Source: Bacteroidota bacterium
GTDB lineage: Bacteria > Bacteroidota > Bacteroidia > 2-12-FULL-35-15
Assembly: GCA_017303895.1 (NCBI GenBank)
Contig: JAFLBF010000017.1
Coordinates: 1 to 64,000, forward strand
DNA length: 64,000 bases
Direction of reading: 5' to 3'
In this document: positions 6,451-16,907 of the stretch, one piece after another
Layout: the number at the start of each line of letters is the position of its first letter
Position numbering within the stretch: position 1 is the first letter of the stretch
Translations under genes and position numbers: made by a program
The notes under the pieces: generated by a model
The model's database searches: none
What the model saw: the letters and a program-made list of their open reading frames with translations, nothing else
Told to the model about the DNA's origin: nothing

Positions 6451-6924
6451 TTATCTTGAAATTTCTACCACTTCAAATTTCATTGTTCCGGAAGGCACTT
6501 TAATATCGGCTACATCACCCACTTTTTTGCCCAACAATCCTTTACCAATTGGAGAGTCAACAGAGATCTTTCCTGATTTAAGATCAGCTTCATTCTCCGC
6601 TACAAGTGTATATTGCATGGTTGCTCCGTTCGCTACATTTTTGATCTTTACTTTGGATAAGATCAAAACCTTAGACATATCAAGAGTTGACTCATCGATC
6701 AAACGGGCATTACTCAATACTTCTTCCAGTTTAGAGATTTTCAATTCCAATAATCCTTGTGCTTCTTTTGCAGCATCATACTCGGCATTCTCCGACAAGT
6801 CGCCTTTATCTCTCGCTTCAGCGATCTGCTTGGAAATAGAAGCACGTTCATGAACTTTCAACTGGTGTAATTCATCCTTAAGTCTTTTCAATCCTTCTTC
6901 TGTAAAATACGATACTTGTGACAT
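6451..6924 (-). CDS. greA: Transcription elongation factor GreA
   Basis: GreA rescues backtracked RNA polymerase by stimulating transcript cleavage through its secondary channel. The protein is 157 residues, the normal length. The N-terminal coiled coil carries the acidic tip in GDLSENAEYDAAKE (the Asp and Glu that position the catalytic metal). The C-terminal domain has SPIGKGLLGKKVGD. The start region of this gene, its leader and the hairpin upstream of it lie inside the left copy of a perfect 828-bp tandem repeat; this copy keeps the complete gene. Confidence 0.95.
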   Translation of the reverse strand: MSQVSYFTEEGLKRLKDELHQLKVHERASISKQIAEARDKGDLSENAEYDAAKEAQGLLELKISKLEEVLSNARLIDESTLDMSKVLILSKVKIKNVANGATMQYTLVAENEADLKSGKISVDSPIGKGLLGKKVGDVADIKVPSGTMKFEVVEISR

Positions 6925-6956
6925 TTGAATTGGTTTTATTGGTTGATTTAAAACAG

Positions 6957-6995
6957 AAAAAGAATCCTTCCGTTTTTAAACGGAAGGACTCTTTT
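6957..6995 (-). terminator. Rho-independent terminator (left repeat copy)
   Basis: Read on the minus strand, AGTCCTTCCGTTT pairs with AAACGGAAGGATT and is followed by a T-rich stretch. It sits after the end of the truncated PorV-like copy and before greA. A TATATTTG box lies upstream of it (7003-7010 read on the minus strand). Confidence 0.8.
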
Positions 6996-7002
6996 CATAA
7001 AG

Positions 7003-7010
7003 CAAATATA
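7003..7010 (-). promoter_or_regulatory. Candidate -7 promoter box for greA
   Basis: Minus-strand TATATTTG matches the Bacteroidota -7 consensus TAnnTTTG. A transcript starting about five bases downstream would read through the hairpin at 6957-6995 before reaching greA, so either the box is fortuitous or the hairpin acts as a leader attenuator. No clear -33 TTTG was found. An identical copy is at 7831-7838. Confidence 0.35.
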
Positions 7011-7019
7011 TAAAAAATA

Positions 7020-7679
7020 TTATAAATTGATGCGGGCACCGAATGAATGCGTTCCATTGAACGGATTCGTAGCGCGGTAAGAATAATCTACTGCAAAAGT
7101 AGATTTGTTTTTACCGAAAGGTAGTTCAACTGTTAAACCGGCACTTGGACCTGTGAATACAGTTGTTCTGTCTTCTTTGCTGAAAATACCTTTTTCGTAA
7201 GTATAACCCGCACGAACCATTACCATATTCTTCCAACCATACTCTAAACCTAATTTATACTCATCTTTAGAGAATGAATTAGATACGAATGCTCCGGAAG
7301 CAGTGATACGGTGTGTTTTCATAGATGCGCTATCTTTAGAAAGATAGAAATCGTATCCGGCACCGATGCTCAATAATGAAGGTAATTCAAACTGAGCAGA
7401 ACGTTGTTCAACAGTCATTACGTTAGAACCATTTGTTGCAGCAGGAACCGGTGTTTTGAAAGACAAACCGTCACCTGAGAATTTCATACGAGGTCCAACA
7501 TTTTTCAATGCGATACCGAATTTCAACTGATCGTTTTTACCGGCAACGTATTGAATACCCGCATCTAATGCGATACCACGAGCACTTACGTTTGCTGTTT
7601 TTTCAGTGATCACTTTCAACGTAATACCACCGTAAATATTATCAGAAAACCCTTTTGCGTATGACAAACCGATGTTCAT
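7020..7679 (-). pseudogene. Truncated duplicate of the PorV-like gene (C-terminal 219 codons)
   Basis: The 219 residues are identical to the C-terminal 219 residues of the intact gene at 7848-8927, starting at an internal Met (MNIGLSYAKG). The signal peptide and the first third of the barrel are missing, so it cannot be exported or folded as a barrel. It arose from the 828-bp tandem duplication. Its ATG lies inside the broken greA copy (7642-7752), so translation by reinitiation is possible. I regard it as a pseudogene of very recent origin because no substitution has accumulated. Confidence 0.85.
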
Positions 7680-7752
7680 GAACTTTCAACTGGTGTAATT
7701 CATCCTTAAGTCTTTTCAATCCTTCTTCTGTAAAATACGATACTTGTGACAT
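7642..7752 (-). pseudogene. Broken greA start: 26 greA codons fused to 10 out-of-frame codons
   Basis: The second repeat copy carries the greA start codon and 26 native codons ending KVHE. At the duplication junction the frame passes into PorV-like sequence in a different frame, adds HRFVIRKRVF and stops at 7642-7644. The predicted 36-residue peptide keeps only the start of the GreA coiled coil and none of the acidic tip, so it should have no GreA activity. It keeps the native greA leader, so it could still be translated. Confidence 0.75.
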
Positions 7753-7784
7753 TTGAATTGGTTTTATTGGTTGATTTAAAACAG

Positions 7785-7823
7785 AAAAAGAATCCTTCCG
7801 TTTTTAAACGGAAGGACTCTTTT
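7785..7823 (-). terminator. Rho-independent terminator (right repeat copy)
   Basis: Same hairpin as at 6957-6995, here directly after the stop of the intact PorV-like gene. It should end the three-gene envelope operon and shield the truncated copies downstream. Confidence 0.8.
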
Positions 7824-7847
7824 CATAAAGCAAATATATAAAAAATA

Positions 7848-8927
7848 TTATAAATTGATGCGGGCACCGAATGAATGCGTTCCATTGAACGGATTCGTAG
7901 CGCGGTAAGAATAATCTACTGCAAAAGTAGATTTGTTTTTACCGAAAGGTAGTTCAACTGTTAAACCGGCACTTGGACCTGTGAATACAGTTGTTCTGTC
8001 TTCTTTGCTGAAAATACCTTTTTCGTAAGTATAACCCGCACGAACCATTACCATATTCTTCCAACCATACTCTAAACCTAATTTATACTCATCTTTAGAG
8101 AATGAATTAGATACGAATGCTCCGGAAGCAGTGATACGGTGTGTTTTCATAGATGCGCTATCTTTAGAAAGATAGAAATCGTATCCGGCACCGATGCTCA
8201 ATAATGAAGGTAATTCAAACTGAGCAGAACGTTGTTCAACAGTCATTACGTTAGAACCATTTGTTGCAGCAGGAACCGGTGTTTTGAAAGACAAACCGTC
8301 ACCTGAGAATTTCATACGAGGTCCAACATTTTTCAATGCGATACCGAATTTCAACTGATCGTTTTTACCGGCAACGTATTGAATACCCGCATCTAATGCG
8401 ATACCACGAGCACTTACGTTTGCTGTTTTTTCAGTGATCACTTTCAACGTAATACCACCGTAAATATTATCAGAAAACCCTTTTGCGTATGACAAACCGA
8501 TGTTCATGAACTGAGGAGAATACGTTCCTAATCCGCCTTCCGGATTATCAACTGTAGTGATCTCGATATCACCAAAATCCATTGACATGATCGTTAAACC
8601 CAATGCACCTGTTTCACCCACACGTTGAGTTAAACCAAATGCATTAATATTGATGTCGGTTCCTTTTAACCATTGCGTACGAGCGAATAATAACTCTGTT
8701 TTACGAGTGAAAGCAGTTCCTGCCACATTCAAAAACATAGCTTCCAATCCTCTTGCACCGGCCATGTTAGCACCAGCCCAACCTGAACTACGCGCCCAAG
8801 GATTGATCAATAACTCGGTTGCACCAGCTTGACCTGCACGGTCAGGATTTCCAGCCTTAACAGTGTCTGAGGCAAGGATAATCCCTGCTAAAGCAAGTGG
8901 AGCGATTAATTTACAATACTTTTTCAT
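7848..8927 (-). CDS. PorV/PorQ-family outer-membrane protein
   Basis: A 359-residue outer-membrane beta-barrel. The N-terminus is a signal peptide (residues 1-25, ending about VKAG). The block GQAGATELLINPWARSSGWAGAN followed by GLEAMFLNVAG is the PorV/PorQ signature, and alternating amphipathic strands follow to a C-terminal GARINL. In T9SS, PorV binds cargo C-terminal domains after they pass the SprA translocon and hands them to PorU. This copy is the last gene of an operon with a TonB-dependent receptor and a large secreted protein, so it is better seen as a dedicated paralogue than as the housekeeping PorV. Its C-terminal 219 codons form half of the 828-bp repeat. Confidence 0.82.
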   Translation of the reverse strand: MKKYCKLIAPLALAGIILASDTVKAGNPDRAGQAGATELLINPWARSSGWAGANMAGARGLEAMFLNVAGTAFTRKTELLFARTQWLKGTDININAFGLTQRVGETGALGLTIMSMDFGDIEITTVDNPEGGLGTYSPQFMNIGLSYAKGFSDNIYGGITLKVITEKTANVSARGIALDAGIQYVAGKNDQLKFGIALKNVGPRMKFSGDGLSFKTPVPAATNGSNVMTVEQRSAQFELPSLLSIGAGYDFYLSKDSASMKTHRITASGAFVSNSFSKDEYKLGLEYGWKNMVMVRAGYTYEKGIFSKEDRTTVFTGPSAGLTVELPFGKNKSTFAVDYSYRATNPFNGTHSFGARINL

Positions 8928-8981
8928 ATTATATCTTGTTTTATGTAAACTCTAATTTCTTTTGATCTATTGTTAATACTA

Positions 8982-11900
8982 TTAATACGACTCCAAATCG
9001 ATTGGACGCATTACACCAAACCATTTCAACACTTTCTCTCCTACATTTGGAACATCCACATGGATAATGTAAAGTCCACTTGCGATAGGAATACGTGCTT
9101 GGTTTTTCAAATCCCAATCCAATGATGTTTTTGTATCATCTTTCTTGAATTTACGGATCAATGTACCATTCAATGTATAGATAGTAACTGTACATTGCTC
9201 CGGAAGATTTGTGATCTTAACAATATTATCTAAAGTAGATTTCTCATAACCAGAGTAAGCATAGTATGGATTTGGAACGATATTGATCAGATCCAATGAA
9301 TTTACTGCAGCATCGTTATCGTCCACAACAGTTTGAATATCTGCCGTAGAGAAAGTATAATATGGATCTGCATTAAAGTCTTTGTTCACACCAGTAATCG
9401 TTTGATCAGTTGTCATCACCATTGGGTTAGCAATAGAAGAAGTGTAATTAGCATTTACAGCAGTAAATGAAGCTCCTTCTAACACATTCACAGCATTGTG
9501 AGTGATCGGTCCGTTCTCAACAAAGTATTGCCTTCCCGGAACCAATTGTCCATCAGCCACGTAAGTTCCAGTTCCAAACTTTTTGTAAGCTTTGCTTACA
9601 CGTAAACGAACTTTTACATCTGTTTCCAATGTTGGATGTCCTGCAACACCTAATGGAATGTTTACCCACATTGCATCTGCAAAGAATTCACGTTTGTAAC
9701 CTTCACTTGAAGTTCCTGTAGTTGCAGCAGCAGCTTTCAATAAATTGTAAGAAGCTACACCTTGGTCATAAGCAGGGATATCTCTTAAACCGCTTGGTAA
9801 CTGAGCATCAGTTGGTTGATAGATATCATTGTTATTGTGTCCAAGAACATAGATATAATGTTTACCACCAAATACAGGAGAACCACCGCTTGTAACAGTT
9901 GATGTTGGATTCCATTTCATATCTGCACCATTCTCATTGATCAACCATGAATCTTCACCAAAAGCCATGTTCAAACGCTCACCAGTTTCAAGGTTAAGTG
10001 CATAACCAGGGAACCAGCCCATACCTGTAGGTTGAGTACCACCAAAGTCACCTTCGGCAGAATTATAACCTGCATCACCTGATTTACGACCTTCTTTATC
10101 AACAGAAGCAGAAGCGCGCATGTGTAATTTAGGAGCTCCACCGATCGCTAAAGCAGTTTCATCTTGCTCTTCTAATACCGGACAACGAGTCCATTTTGAT
10201 TTATCAGATGTGAAAACGATGTCAACACTTGCTAATTTACCTAAACTGCTTAATGTGATAAACTTATTCCAAGCCGGACCACCTTTGTAATCAGTTATCG
10301 TAGCAGGAGTTGAAGCACATAAGCGGTAAGGTGCCCAAGTTCCATTTAAAACTTTTTCATAAGCTGAATTATCATCTTGTCCACCATAGTCAGCATAATC
10401 AGGAGGAGCAGTGGTAGTACCTGAACGGATCCAGTTTGTAAATGTTTCTTGATCTGTATCAGCTACCGCACTTAACCAACGTTTACTTGGATCTGCAAAC
10501 TCCATAGAGGCAGTCAAGAATCCGTTATTAGTAGCATTCGCATTACCCGGATCATAAGAGATAACAACATTTACAGACATACCCCATTTCGTAATGATCT
10601 GCTCATTCGGAATAGCAATTGTACGCTCTGACCATACTGTATCATCCGGTGAACCACCAGGTAATTTTACCATATACCATTTTGAACCGCTTGTTGGAGC
10701 GTTTGCATTATAATTAGCTACTGAGCTACTGTCATACAAACGGATCGCAAATTCAGCATTCGGAACATTTAATGGATCGATCACTTTAATATTTACAGGA
10801 CCTTTTGCATTTTCATACTCAGGGTTTAATACTTTACTTGTTCCTGAACCTGTGAAGAATTTAGCAACTGTACCAGAAGTGAAATCCAATTCTAAAGCAC
10901 CATTTCCTTGACCTTCTAATCGAGTCAACTTAGGACCTGAACCATAATTCACATTTTGAACTGTTCCACCTGCTTCAGGAGAAGGCGTGTGAGGAATACC
11001 TGTATGAACAAAGTATCCATCAGCCTGCTTACGACCAGCAATAAACGGTAAGTAATCTTGCAATGCAGCCGGGTTGAAAGGCAAAGTACTAGGCTGAACA
11101 CTGAAACCGTATGCAATGATCGCATAATAGTATGATTTATGATTCACAAGCTTTGGGTCGCCTACAGCAAATTTATCTTCTGTAATGGAGATCGAGTGAA
11201 CAATTCCAGCATCAGCACCATTTACCATTTCTTGAGGAACCAATGCTCCTAAATTATCATCCATTGTGTAGTTCACAATTTGCTTGTATCCATCCTTCTT
11301 ATCGCATTGGAATACCAAACGAGCTCTATCAGGATCATACAATTCAGTAGCACTCACCGTTGCATCTTTCAACTGATAGATCATATAACCTTGGAAACGG
11401 TATAATGAATCGGCACCACTTGAAGGGTTATCATCTTCTGAGTAATTTTCGTTTGCATTGTTTGATTGAGCGATGTTTGTTGGGTTAGTCCAATACAATA
11501 TCAACTCGTTGTTCAGCTCTTGAATCGTCAAATTCGGAGCTGTTGGACCATCTAATGTTTTGAAACATCTGTCAAATAATTTTTGAGCTTTTGCATCAGC
11601 ACCTTTTAATAATGCTAAGGAAGCTAAGTTACCACCTTGAGTTGCTCTAGCCCAAACAACACCTGTTGTAATAGTATTAACAGCACCCGGTTGCAATGTA
11701 AATGGCCCGGCTGATTGCAAGAAACGTCTATCTGCAGGAGTATTACCTACACTTGCTTCATCCCAAGGAGCTTGAGAAATAAAGTTTGTTCCATAACCTG
11801 TAGGATCGGAAGCACCAGGGAACATATAGCTACAAGCTATACCACCACTTTGGTGACCATCACCACCATAGGTCATTGGAGTATCATCTAACCAAGTACC

Positions 11901-13133
11901 ACTTAAATATTGATAGAAGTTGTTATCACCATTTGGATTACCGGTTGTTGTATTATCATTATTATAGTACATGAATTTCTTCATACCTATACGCTCATCA
12001 TCTACTATTCCATTCCCGTAGTTAAGGAAACTGGCAGGAACAGAAGCTGCGGGGTCATCCGCTAGATTCGCATCCGCAAAAGGACCTTCAAAGAAATCCA
12101 CTCCAATAGCTGGAGGATTTACACCGTACAACAACTGTCCGGTACCACCATTATCATCTACTAAGTCACCATTGTAGCAGAAACCTAAACCAAGAGATAC
12201 GTCACAACCAACATAGTCATCATAAGCACCACCTAAGTCAGCATCTACCCATACACCAAAGAATGTACTATCTAAACGGAAAGAAGATTTGTTTACAATT
12301 CTGTAACGATAGAAAGTCTGGTTATTGATCTCATCATTAGTTTCAAATCCAAACGCTTGTGCTTGGATCTCGATACCAATAGCTTGTCCACCTGTTTCTG
12401 AATGAACATTTCCTTTATCATTGAATACCCAAAATAAGTTTTGATCACCAAATAATTTGGCTGCACAACCTCTAGTACCGGTGATATCAAAATCAGGAAC
12501 CTCACCTAAGAATGGCTCATATACACCATTGCTGTTCATGTCATAGAAAGGCGCTAATGGTTGTCCATCTGTACCAACTGTTGGCCAGTTATTGATAACA
12601 TCCATTGCATCAGAAGGAGTGGGATTCGAATTTTGGGAACCATTTACAAACCAGTTGTAATATGTTTCAACATCTTTACGGTTGATCTTAAAGTGCTTAT
12701 CCCAAATTGAACAAATTGAAGCGTCAGTAACGCCACTTGCATCTAAAGGTCCCGGCCAAAAGTCGTTACCAGTTTGACGGTAAGTCATACCGGCAGCTTT
12801 TAACTGTCCACCCGCATCGTAACCACCGATCCATAAGGATCCGGCAAACAATGATGAAGGTCCTGGAGAACCTTTTGCTGGTTTTGGAACAAGATATTTA
12901 CCATTCAAAAGATCCCACCACATATCACCACCGGTCATAATAACGGTTCTAACGTTATTTATATCCAAATCTGTTTTGGCAGTAGCAGGTGTACAAGCCG
13001 CTGCAACAGATCTCGTTGGATCTGCGTTGCTTACAGGAGCTAAACCTGCTCCCACATTTCTTTCTGCTTGTGCATGGAATGCCAAAGTCAAAAAGGCCGC
13101 AGCTGTAAGTAGTTTATTTCGATTCTTTTTCAT
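8982..13133 (-). CDS. Large exported protein, probable T9SS cargo (1383 residues)
   Basis: I start at the Met of MKKNRNKLL, which begins a normal signal peptide ending AFHAQA; the frame is open seven codons further upstream. The mature part begins with a block containing MTGGDMWWDLLNG, SLWIGGYDAGGQL and TYRQTGNDFWPGPLD, which I recognise as recurring in large secreted proteins of Bacteroidota. The middle has several aromatic- and Gly/Asn-rich beta-sandwich-like modules. The C-terminus (VPNPYYAYS, VTIYTLNGTLIRKF, IASGLYIIHVDV) looks like a type A T9SS sorting or FlgD-like Ig domain with a short extra tail GVMRPIDLESY. It lies 54 bases before the PorV-like gene and 45 bases after the receptor gene, so the three are co-transcribed. 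Function is unknown; surface display is inferred. Confidence 0.78.
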   Translation of the reverse strand: MKKNRNKLLTAAAFLTLAFHAQAERNVGAGLAPVSNADPTRSVAAACTPATAKTDLDINNVRTVIMTGGDMWWDLLNGKYLVPKPAKGSPGPSSLFAGSLWIGGYDAGGQLKAAGMTYRQTGNDFWPGPLDASGVTDASICSIWDKHFKINRKDVETYYNWFVNGSQNSNPTPSDAMDVINNWPTVGTDGQPLAPFYDMNSNGVYEPFLGEVPDFDITGTRGCAAKLFGDQNLFWVFNDKGNVHSETGGQAIGIEIQAQAFGFETNDEINNQTFYRYRIVNKSSFRLDSTFFGVWVDADLGGAYDDYVGCDVSLGLGFCYNGDLVDDNGGTGQLLYGVNPPAIGVDFFEGPFADANLADDPAASVPASFLNYGNGIVDDERIGMKKFMYYNNDNTTTGNPNGDNNFYQYLSGTWLDDTPMTYGGDGHQSGGIACSYMFPGASDPTGYGTNFISQAPWDEASVGNTPADRRFLQSAGPFTLQPGAVNTITTGVVWARATQGGNLASLALLKGADAKAQKLFDRCFKTLDGPTAPNLTIQELNNELILYWTNPTNIAQSNNANENYSEDDNPSSGADSLYRFQGYMIYQLKDATVSATELYDPDRARLVFQCDKKDGYKQIVNYTMDDNLGALVPQEMVNGADAGIVHSISITEDKFAVGDPKLVNHKSYYYAIIAYGFSVQPSTLPFNPAALQDYLPFIAGRKQADGYFVHTGIPHTPSPEAGGTVQNVNYGSGPKLTRLEGQGNGALELDFTSGTVAKFFTGSGTSKVLNPEYENAKGPVNIKVIDPLNVPNAEFAIRLYDSSSVANYNANAPTSGSKWYMVKLPGGSPDDTVWSERTIAIPNEQIITKWGMSVNVVISYDPGNANATNNGFLTASMEFADPSKRWLSAVADTDQETFTNWIRSGTTTAPPDYADYGGQDDNSAYEKVLNGTWAPYRLCASTPATITDYKGGPAWNKFITLSSLGKLASVDIVFTSDKSKWTRCPVLEEQDETALAIGGAPKLHMRASASVDKEGRKSGDAGYNSAEGDFGGTQPTGMGWFPGYALNLETGERLNMAFGEDSWLINENGADMKWNPTSTVTSGGSPVFGGKHYIYVLGHNNNDIYQPTDAQLPSGLRDIPAYDQGVASYNLLKAAAATTGTSSEGYKREFFADAMWVNIPLGVAGHPTLETDVKVRLRVSKAYKKFGTGTYVADGQLVPGRQYFVENGPITHNAVNVLEGASFTAVNANYTSSIANPMVMTTDQTITGVNKDFNADPYYTFSTADIQTVVDDNDAAVNSLDLINIVPNPYYAYSGYEKSTLDNIVKITNLPEQCTVTIYTLNGTLIRKFKKDDTKTSLDWDLKNQARIPIASGLYIIHVDVPNVGEKVLKWFGVMRPIDLESY

Positions 13134-13178
13134 ATCAATATGTATTTGTAGCATTTCTATTCTTTATATAACGATCAA

Positions 13179-16100
13179 TTAAAAGTCTAACAATAATCCT
13201 AAACGAATAACGCGAGGACGTTGGTAGTTATTCGGATTGTTGATCTTAACCCCGTAAAGATCCTGGAAGGAAGTTTGACTTGTTTGACCAGCAATTGTTG
13301 ATTGAGCCTGAGCAGAAGCTAAATAACCATCATCATCAGGTGTACCTGTTGCTCTGTAAACTCTGATCACATTCTTAGTGTTCAATACGTTCAACACTTG
13401 CAAGTAGATGTTTAAGTTCGCATGTTTTTTATCTTCTCCTTCTTTCTTACCTCCCCATGTTAATTCCATGTTTTTGTCGATACGTAAGTCCATTCTGAAG
13501 TTCCAAGGTAAGTTAGAACCGTTGATAGAACCTTCCAATTTGGGATTATTCGAAATACCAAACTGACCTTCAGGAATAAAGTTAGACTGTTTGCTGTAAG
13601 GAGTACCGGAACCTGCACGGAATACTACGTTCGCTCCAACATCTTCCAAGATATTGATGATCTTATCACCTTTCTTAAAGCGAGGACCGTTATAATCTTT
13701 TCCTGCACCAAAACGGTAGTCAACATTTAATACGATCGTATGACGTTGATCGAAATCCAATGGATGTGTAGTTCTTAGATTAGGCTGACCAGTGGAAGCT
13801 AAATTAATTCCATCAGAAGCGCTTGAACCTGTACCATCAGCAAACTGTAATGTATAGTTAGCAGACAATTGAACTCCACTAGCCATTCTTCTTAAGTCGT
13901 AAGCAATAGAGAATCCTTTAACTGTACCAAAATCAATATTAGCATAAGAGGTATATGTCATCGGGTACGCCTGGAAAACAGAAGTAGTTTGAATCATATT
14001 TCTCAATTCACGATAGAAAGCAGAGAGCGTAATAGAAGAGTTCTTTTTCTCATTCAATACCTGAGCAAAACCTAACTCATAGTCAATTGTTTTTTCAGGT
14101 TTCAAATCAGGATTATTTACCACACCTCCTAAACTATTAACAACAGAATAGTATTGCATTATATCTAAACGATTAGCAGCTGGAGGACGTTGTGTCAATA
14201 CATCATAGTGAGCAAAGAAATTCGCTACGTCAGAGATCGGGAATGCAAATGCAATACGTGGCATCAAATTGATTTGAGGATCATAATCCTTAAATACTTT
14301 TGAAGAAAGTTCTTTTTTACCATATAACTCTTTTGATTCAGAAGTCAAATAAGGCGTAACAGAACTACCAGAGGAAACAGTTAAATCAGATACCTCGACA
14401 CCCTGCGCATTATACCATGTGTCGCCATTTCTATACCCAACCACAGTTGGACTTGTTGAATTGTAATCATTTACATAAACAACATAATCATTTCCAATAT
14501 TCGAAGGTTGCCCGCCCACTTCACCTGCAGTTTTAGCTTCATACAATAAGTATTTATCTTTCAATACTTTTTGGTTAGCATCAAAACGGTCGATACGTAA
14601 ACCTACGTTAAAGCGGATATCTTTGAAATCGAATTTATCCTGAATATAACCTGCGATATAGATTGGCTGGTAAGCACCTAATTCTCTAGTTAAATTCCCT
14701 TTGTCATCCTTTTTATTAAAAAAATCTTCAAGTGAAGGATTTGATTTAAGCTTTTTTCCTTTATAATCATATCCATAGTAATTAACATAAGAGGTTCCAC
14801 CCAAATTTAAAAGGTCATCAGCACTAAACATATCGATATTGAAAGTTGAAGGATCATATGCATCAATGTCGATCCAATCCAAGCCATTTACATCATACCC
14901 TAATGCTTCACGGATACTTTCTCCGAATTGAGTGATGTTTCCATCATTGTATCTGTTAAAATTGTAAGCATCAAAAGTTCCAAAAATCGTATTGATTTGT
15001 CCAGCATAAATTGGAATAGTATCAAGACCTTGTATGTGAAAATTCGCCAAATCGCGCATCCTAGACCATAAACTAATTGCAGAAACAAAATAAGATCTTG
15101 AGGTCCGTTGTTCGTATTCAAAACCTAACTGAACTGCATGTTTTTTAATATCTGCAGAGAAGTTAGCAAATACACGGAACTGAGTACTCTGATCATATCC
15201 ATATCCACCATACTGACGACCGGTATTGTACCACATAGAGTAAATGTTACGTGGACGGTCACCATTCATCAAACCAAAACCTTGTTGAACATCGATCAAG
15301 CTCTCAACTTGATTTTGTTCATAAGCATAAAATTGACTCGTATACGCTGCACCAATTGGATTTTGATTGCCAGGAGTGAATGATAAACTTGTATTACTAA
15401 ATCCATCCTGAAACATTGCCACCAAAGTATCTACAACCCCATCTCCATCAATATCATAATCTCCATACGAAACAGTTGGATCACCGTAAGACACTTCCTT
15501 TGTTTGCTCAAACTTTCCTATGTAACCATAATCAAAGATCTTGTCTTTATGGGTATCATCTTGTGTTTTCGAACTAGTGCTTGCATAACTAGCTTGCAAA
15601 GTGAAATACGCATTTTTAATGATCGAAGATGATTTTTCTTCTTCAGCTGAATTATTGTTGTTAAATTTCTGAGTTAATTTTCCATATACCCTCCATGTGT
15701 TAGAGATTATTTGAGGGTTATTACTTGGGTTGAAAAGTGCGTATTCATAAATGAAATCATGACGATTACCGTAATCAACAGATCCACCTAATGTGATACC
15801 CATATTAGTAGTAGGTTGATATTGGATCTTTCCGTTTAAACGCAAAGCTTGTTGACCTACATTATTTCTTGCTTTGATCTTTTCCAAATCATCAGCAGTA
15901 ACATATTCTGAATTTAATTGGTACGCTCCAGTTGCAACAGATGATGGCCGTAATGGCGAGTATTCTAATTCTTGTAGCTTATCCTTTTTTATTTGATAAA
16001 AACCAACCACAGAAGGGTTTGGATCTTTTTCACTAACAGCCTCACCGGAAATACTAAAACCTAAAACTGATTTTTTTACTCCACTAGCAGAATCCGATTT

Positions 16101-16907
16101 CATAAGGATTGGACCGTTTAATGAGAAACCAATAAAATTGTATCCATAAGCATCTAAACCTCTTGAACTACCATCTTTTTCTCCTAATCCGGAAGTGATC
16201 ATTTCAATACCACCAGAATATTTACTTGCAGGGCCCTTTGTAGTAATAGCAATGATACCACCTGTAGCATCACCATACTCTGCCGGAGTACCACCAACAA
16301 TAGTTGTGATTTGATCCACTGAATTTTGAGGAACTGAAGAGCTACCTATTACTTTTTGACCATCCACATAATATGCAGTACCGTCAGAACGTGCACCACG
16401 TACATTCAAAGAACCACCTTCATCTTGTTGGTAAACACCAGCTGTTGTTGATGCTACGGAGTTAATATTCTTTGTTGCCATGTTCTTATACTCCTCAGCA
16501 GTAACTGTACCACCTGATTTCGTATCCGGATCGATCAATGGCTTGCTCCACTCAACGATCTCAACAACATCTAACTGTTGTCCAGCCGCCATTTCCATAT
16601 TTAAGTGAACCGTTTTACCAACGGTTAAAACCACGTTATCAATTTGTACCGCTTGATAACCAACGTATGTCGCTTTTACATTATATCGTCCCGGATTAAG
16701 AGGTTTGATCAACACCTCACCATCGATGTTTGTTGTACCAACACCCGCTTGGATACCACCCATTTCAACAACGACATTCGCAAACGGAATCGTTTCTTTG
16801 TTGGCCTTATCTGTCAGCCTAACTTTAATTGCTGCCTCGTTTTGTGCAAACATCAGCCCTGCTGACGCAACAACAATAGACAATGTAGAGAGTAATTTTC
16901 GTAGCAT
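13179..16907 (-). CDS. TonB-dependent receptor with CarboxypepD_reg domain
   Basis: A 1242-residue outer-membrane receptor. It has a signal peptide (residues 1-22, ending FAQ), then a carboxypeptidase regulatory-like domain (about 25-110: KETIPFANVVVEMGG, GRYNVKATYVGYQAV). The plug domain follows (GGSLNVRGARSDGTAYYVDG, TPAEYGDATGGIIAITTKG), then a long barrel ending in PRVIRLGLLLDF, with a terminal aromatic as expected for BAM substrates. It is first in the operon with the large secreted protein and PorV-like barrel; no SusD gene is present. It may work as an anchor or gate for the secreted partner rather than as a nutrient importer, which is inference. Long upstream region (16908-17277) probably holds its promoter. 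Confidence 0.9.
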   Translation of the reverse strand: MLRKLLSTLSIVVASAGLMFAQNEAAIKVRLTDKANKETIPFANVVVEMGGIQAGVGTTNIDGEVLIKPLNPGRYNVKATYVGYQAVQIDNVVLTVGKTVHLNMEMAAGQQLDVVEIVEWSKPLIDPDTKSGGTVTAEEYKNMATKNINSVASTTAGVYQQDEGGSLNVRGARSDGTAYYVDGQKVIGSSSVPQNSVDQITTIVGGTPAEYGDATGGIIAITTKGPASKYSGGIEMITSGLGEKDGSSRGLDAYGYNFIGFSLNGPILMKSDSASGVKKSVLGFSISGEAVSEKDPNPSVVGFYQIKKDKLQELEYSPLRPSSVATGAYQLNSEYVTADDLEKIKARNNVGQQALRLNGKIQYQPTTNMGITLGGSVDYGNRHDFIYEYALFNPSNNPQIISNTWRVYGKLTQKFNNNNSAEEEKSSSIIKNAYFTLQASYASTSSKTQDDTHKDKIFDYGYIGKFEQTKEVSYGDPTVSYGDYDIDGDGVVDTLVAMFQDGFSNTSLSFTPGNQNPIGAAYTSQFYAYEQNQVESLIDVQQGFGLMNGDRPRNIYSMWYNTGRQYGGYGYDQSTQFRVFANFSADIKKHAVQLGFEYEQRTSRSYFVSAISLWSRMRDLANFHIQGLDTIPIYAGQINTIFGTFDAYNFNRYNDGNITQFGESIREALGYDVNGLDWIDIDAYDPSTFNIDMFSADDLLNLGGTSYVNYYGYDYKGKKLKSNPSLEDFFNKKDDKGNLTRELGAYQPIYIAGYIQDKFDFKDIRFNVGLRIDRFDANQKVLKDKYLLYEAKTAGEVGGQPSNIGNDYVVYVNDYNSTSPTVVGYRNGDTWYNAQGVEVSDLTVSSGSSVTPYLTSESKELYGKKELSSKVFKDYDPQINLMPRIAFAFPISDVANFFAHYDVLTQRPPAANRLDIMQYYSVVNSLGGVVNNPDLKPEKTIDYELGFAQVLNEKKNSSITLSAFYRELRNMIQTTSVFQAYPMTYTSYANIDFGTVKGFSIAYDLRRMASGVQLSANYTLQFADGTGSSASDGINLASTGQPNLRTTHPLDFDQRHTIVLNVDYRFGAGKDYNGPRFKKGDKIINILEDVGANVVFRAGSGTPYSKQSNFIPEGQFGISNNPKLEGSINGSNLPWNFRMDLRIDKNMELTWGGKKEGEDKKHANLNIYLQVLNVLNTKNVIRVYRATGTPDDDGYLASAQAQSTIAGQTSQTSFQDLYGVKINNPNNYQRPRVIRLGLLLDF

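Follow-up and report, generated by a model that had tools for sequence, protein, structure and literature searches.

Introduction

In descriptions of the T9SS, type A cargo proteins share PorV as their carrier. The CTDs of PorZ and PorU are not cleaved off, the one staying on PorQ and the other on PorV, and cognate PorV-like barrels have been proposed to shield such CTDs against cleavage (PMC10202324). Barrels of the PorP/SprF kind adjoin the specific cargo, with a type B CTD and exemplified by SprB, that they are proposed to anchor (PMC10202324, PMC9143113). Outside the T9SS, a large surface partner accompanies a TonB-dependent receptor (TBDR) in one operon in SusC–SusD, which exists in many diversified copies; a large extracellular lipoprotein, BamH, sits on the loops of the FadL-fold barrel BamG (PMC12578637); and in the Oar–PopC system of Myxococcus the secretion of a protein depends on a TBDR (PMC6434023).

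Here, we describe a locus that combines elements of these systems. In a window of 64,000 nucleotides, the whole stretch of DNA that was analyzed, a TBDR, a large T9SS-type surface protein (referred to below as the cargo) and a PorV/PorQ-family outer-membrane barrel are encoded one after the other. By analogy, this trio may work like PorQ–PorZ or SprF–SprB, in that a CTD protein is held by its cognate barrel, with a TonB-dependent receptor in addition. With PorQ–PorZ and PorV–PorU it would share a CTD protein that is held uncleaved by a barrel of the PorV family, and the CTD of the window cargo is structurally nearest that of PorZ and then that of PorU. However, the cargo body bears no relation to either the propeller of PorZ or the peptidase of PorU, the operon includes a TBDR, and PorQ, PorV, and PorU are each separately present in the genome. 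As in PorP/SprF, the barrel adjoins its specific cargo, but this barrel is a PorV/PorQ-family member and the cargo has a type A-like CTD. The single operon with a TBDR and a large surface partner recalls SusC–SusD, although the partner is neither a lipoprotein nor a SusD, the receptor matches no SusC/RagA family model, and the trio is single copy and vertically conserved rather than diversified. The extracellular components of BAM were considered because this locus, too, pairs a FadL-fold barrel with a large surface protein; no family relation was found, and BamG–BamH is an analogue only, since BamH is a lipoprotein and not a T9SS cargo, the barrel is of another family and no TBDR is involved. 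Oar–PopC shares the TBDR but neither the T9SS nor PorV. The same genome also encodes PorU2–PorV2, in which a PorV-family barrel likewise adjoins a dedicated CTD-pathway partner, there a sortase homologue (PorV2 adjoins PorU2 at L006, G000:C1 around 188792-189766). A literature search, through which few subscription papers were reachable, found no publication describing a TBDR–cargo–barrel trio, and the trio looks like an undescribed core surface machine.

Organization of the Locus

The three genes are consecutive on the minus strand in the order TBDR (1242 aa; 13179..16907), cargo (1383 aa; 8982..13133), and barrel (359 aa; 7848..8927). The gaps are 45 bp between TBDR and cargo and 54 bp between cargo and barrel, so that the layout given in an earlier note on this DNA, three genes in sequence with gaps of about 45-55 bases and proteins of 1242 and 1383 aa, holds in each particular. 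The cargo ORF as such comprises 1390 aa (8982-13154, minus strand); its start was placed at Met8 (13133), which is invariant among relatives and gives the 1383-aa protein. A terminator-like hairpin (7785..7824, minus strand) lies 3′ of the barrel gene and 5′ of greA (6451..6924, minus strand), a conserved neighbor downstream of the trio that is not claimed as a member of the complex.

The Trio Is Co-conserved Across the Class

Eighty loci were fetched independently through relatives of the cargo protein. The TBDR–cargo–barrel arrangement was complete in 62 of them, with the same order and strand and with gaps whose medians are 29 and 41 bp, while the remaining 18 were cut by contig ends, represented a rearranged fragment (L028), or held second cargo copies (six). 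These six lone-cargo loci, which had room around them, were considered as a break in co-occurrence, and on follow-up this was rejected for all of them: each of the six genomes has a barrel orthologue around which the three genes stand in the usual order (in one genome on contigs truncated at the ends), and because all six thus also hold the trio, the lone cargo is a second copy. Among 26 genomes of the window's order, the trio is together in 24, split over two contigs in one (G311), and entirely absent from one.

The same pattern extends to the class, from which 396 genomes were drawn evenly and the presence of all, none, or part of the trio was tallied by hand. Orthologues of the cargo were found in 297, of the barrel in 303, and of the receptor in 306 genomes; all three genes occur in 291 (about three quarters), none in 87, and part of the set in 18, and presence or absence is therefore concordant in 378 of the 396. 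The earlier note had named a lack of co-conservation as a finding that could overturn its reading, and the three families prove to be co-conserved. The trio spans about 145 genera, is mostly single-copy, and is nearly all-or-none. It occurs in the cultured species Crocinitomix catalasitica and Flavipsychrobacter stenotrophus and is therefore open to experimental testing.

Of the 62 complete loci, 60 have greA as the next gene downstream of the trio, on the same strand and no more than 253 bp away, and in 59 greA is in turn followed by a HIT gene. This synteny of surface and housekeeping genes (L013-L092) is unusually deep, and the trio block is old and vertically inherited. Given the strong synteny with greA and the HIT gene, adjacency by itself is weaker evidence for a complex than it looks.

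In some genomes there is a further homologous cargo bearing the same tail, either following the trio, in the order TBDR–cargo–barrel–second cargo (G297:C17:16377-29592 and G405:C40:26872-40217), or elsewhere and without a barrel (G301, G303). A receptor and a barrel with no cargo above threshold were found in genomes G369, G373, G396, G449, G495, G503, G530, G599, and G602, in which the cargo has possibly diverged or been replaced; in G396, G449, G530, and G599 the receptor and the barrel lie on separate contigs.

A Fourth PorV/PorQ-Family Barrel

The assignment of the barrel to the PorV/PorQ family, made in the earlier note, is confirmed by a score of 146.5 bits against NF033709 (cut-off 90), a model matched by 33 of 33 members of the barrel family at E 0.01. 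Against the models of the individual family members the barrel falls well short, and each of these has its own representative in the genome: canonical PorV (NF033710), 68 bits, below 250, versus 508 for the genome's own PorV, beside PorU; PorQ (NF033711), 66 bits, below 220, versus 395; and PorV2 (NF052325), 49 bits, below 325, versus 524. The window barrel is the fourth PorV/PorQ-family member of this genome, distinct from PorV, PorQ, and PorV2. That it might be the sole PorV of the genome, the other finding that could have undone the earlier reading, is ruled out by the presence of these three separate proteins; in all, SprA, PorU, PorV, PorQ, PorU2, and PorV2 are encoded outside the trio.

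In its predicted fold, the barrel corresponds to the PorV of the substrate-bound translocon, with CTD bound (8gl6_F, Z 33.5). It also matches BamG (Z about 24-26), and by structure comparison the PorV family falls within the FadL fold. In a tree with the genome's other PorV members, the barrel family is weakly separated from PorV/PorQ (61/86) on long branches, and this tree was not counted as main evidence.

The Cargo CTD Has a Private Tail and Is Predicted to Dock on the Barrel

The type A-like CTD of the cargo comprises aa 1281-1390 of the ORF (8985..9314, minus strand). It scores 22.8 bits against TIGR04183 (cut-off 23) and 13 bits against PF18962 (cut-off 27); TIGR04183 matches 28 of 33 members of the cargo family at E 0.01, and in profile scans a PorZ model matches the same region, in keeping with the type A-like C terminus that had been read from the sequence. 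Structurally, the domain matches the CTDs of PorZ, PorU, and mirolase, the nearest being the CTD of PorZ (Z 11.2, 2.1 Å over 89 residues, 25% identity), followed by that of PorU (Z 9.1). The CTD closes with a family-specific C-terminal tail, KWFGVMRPIDLESY (aa 1377-1390; 8985..9026, minus strand), of the type KWFG-x2-RP-x-D-x3-Y/F, variants included. Of 80 family members, 68 show this pattern, several of the others ending at contig edges, and it occurs in 0 of about 2,290 other ORFs in the locus flanks. Together, the CTD and its tail are the best-conserved region of the cargo.

The cargo and barrel genes share a reading frame, which allowed the CTD and the barrel to be modeled as a single chain. 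The AlphaFold model comprised the CTD, the intergenic codons with stops read through (table 6), and the barrel, and its alignment contained 15 relatives paired in the same fused manner. The pTM was 0.86, a value that stems from a single fused chain, with neither a control CTD nor a control barrel and with a linker that may favor packing, compared with about 0.63-0.68 expected for a CTD unplaced relative to the barrel. The mean confidence of the CTD was 93 with the barrel vs. 76 in the model of the cargo without it. We regard this fused model as moderate evidence for docking, and the cargo CTD probably docks on its cognate barrel. The earlier note had called for structure prediction of the complex, and what this has yielded is the predicted placement of the CTD on the barrel; a contact between the TBDR and the cargo is inferred from linkage only. 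The linkage, the unusual conserved CTD tail, and the predicted CTD–barrel placement together lend good support to the view that a PorV paralogue is tied to a particular cargo. The stronger form of this claim, that the paralogue is locked to one cargo, does not extend to those genomes with a second cargo bearing the same tail.

The cargo could nevertheless be an ordinary T9SS substrate of the canonical PorV and PorU, encoded next to a TBDR and a FadL-like barrel for hydrophobic ligands, the three being joined by common regulation or a common pathway and forming no complex. The place of the PorV family within the FadL fold is compatible with such an arrangement, as are the second cargo copies that have no adjacent barrel, and the adjacency of greA and the HIT gene is strong synteny in itself. 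However, the three genes agree in presence or absence in nearly every genome of the class sample (378/396), and the CTD is conserved above the body and ends in a private tail, unlike ordinary type A CTDs, which show low conservation on the surface that faces the translocon (PMC10994853). Moreover, the second cargo copies keep the tail. We therefore consider an ordinary cargo unlikely, and favor a cargo that is held by its own barrel.

The Cargo Body and the Receptor

By inspection, the N terminus of the cargo, MKKNRNKLLTAAAFLTLAFHAQA, is a Sec signal peptide, with no lipobox at its end. The body was modeled with AlphaFold on aa 192-1390 and compared with known structures by VIA-align. Residues 237-533 (11556..12446, minus strand) form a predicted β-supersandwich that resembles the N-terminal domain of GH94/GH116 glycosidases/phosphorylases, minus the catalytic barrel (Z about 12), and an FN3-like stretch comes next in the predicted structure. 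The supersandwich match, which is at the level of fold, would fit contact with carbohydrate and proves nothing; we make no claim of enzyme activity. Foldseek also paired the cargo with streptococcal proteases and complement-like proteins, but at TM-scores <0.1, and these matches were disregarded; a PDB sequence search with a single barrel or cargo sequence as the query gave nothing useful.

Two further proteins in the genome (L011 and L012; G000:C1:740316-746512) have the N-terminal domain of the cargo; these relatives end in ordinary type A CTDs from which the tail is absent. The N-terminal domain is also present in other classes of the phylum. Outside the class, just part of the cargo was found (about model positions 20-680), in proteins mostly of 1000-1300 aa.

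The TBDR consists of a signal peptide and of carboxypeptidase-regulatory, plug, and large barrel domains recognized in domain scans, the matches to PF07715 (35 bits vs. 23.9) and PF00593 (53 bits vs. 27) being above the cut-offs. SusC/RagA family models are absent among the domain matches of 30 members of the TBDR family. No SusD-like protein was seen by inspection among the genes called at window positions 176-25924, as the earlier note had observed, and a SusCD-type operon is ruled out by the missing SusD and SusC match.

A Candidate Three-Component Surface Complex

Collectively, these observations are consistent with a model in which the trio forms a three-component complex at the outer-membrane surface. 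The cargo would cross the inner membrane by means of its signal peptide. As SprA and PorU are encoded elsewhere, its export would probably depend on the common T9SS; judged from the genes present, passage of the outer membrane most likely takes place through the common SprA translocon, with the type A-like CTD as guide. The CTD and its tail, for which docking is predicted, would then stay on the dedicated barrel, neither cleaved nor released, and the barrel would serve as both carrier and permanent non-lipid anchor for the cargo. The linkage of the genes suggests that the anchored cargo may cover the neighboring TBDR, either as a lid or as a subunit that captures substrate, in a SusD-like role, and that the TBDR would import the ligand using TonB energy. 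To this picture as a whole, including the anchoring and the lid role, we give an even chance. Somewhat more tentative is the proposal of an energized outer-membrane receptor complex of a new kind, a counterpart to SusCD: its surface partner would arrive by the T9SS, and a cognate PorV-family barrel, rather than a lipid anchor, would hold it in place. The single copy and deep vertical conservation of the trio suggest a housekeeping ligand or envelope function and not a niche nutrient.

The same genes had been interpreted in the earlier note as a self-contained export or display machine. Spelled out, such a reading would have the barrel replace PorV for one cargo, working via SprA or a similar channel; the TBDR would anchor or energize the process, and there would be no permanent anchor. 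The PorV fold of the barrel, its predicted interaction with the CTD, and the linkage of all three genes accord with this interpretation, and a TBDR role in export has a precedent in Oar, a TonB-dependent transporter that is needed for protease secretion in Myxococcus (PMC6434023). Yet the operon includes no second translocon, SprA, PorU, PorV, PorQ, PorU2, and PorV2 being encoded elsewhere, the plug domain of the receptor is ordinary, and the CTDs nearest that of the cargo, those of PorZ and PorU, are the ones that are retained on their barrels. Nothing was found in support of the TBDR as an anchor or energy source for export. Because the translocon and the sortase are encoded elsewhere and the operon contains no export channel, a self-contained export unit is improbable and less likely than the three-part surface complex. 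Least probable of all is an envelope-building device, such as an assembly or quality-control factor like BamG–BamH, and not an importer: although the FadL-fold BamG, a fold match of the window barrel (Z about 24-26), holds a large extracellular protein above BamA (PMC12578637, PMC12611786) and a single-copy core distribution fits housekeeping, BAM or LPS genes are not linked to the trio and the domain content of the receptor is that of a TonB-dependent importer.

Under the surface-complex model, a fourth PorV-family barrel that is synteny-locked to one cargo family and one TBDR points to cargo-specific anchoring of type A proteins, and the trio points to a link between the T9SS and TonB-dependent transport. 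If the parallel to SusCD is true, such a complex would be a core component in most of the sampled families of the class, linking the T9SS directly to TonB-dependent transport.

A Tandem Duplication in the Window

The window contains a perfect tandem duplication at 6846-8512 (839 bp, 100% identity, period 828), which was not found in a search of the remaining 25 genomes of the order and is either a recent event or an assembly artefact. The second copy, joined at the palindrome GTTCATGAAC, carries two thirds of the barrel gene (its 3′ part) along with the terminator and the opening codons of greA, and the duplication gives rise to an additional, truncated barrel ORF (7020-7679, minus strand).
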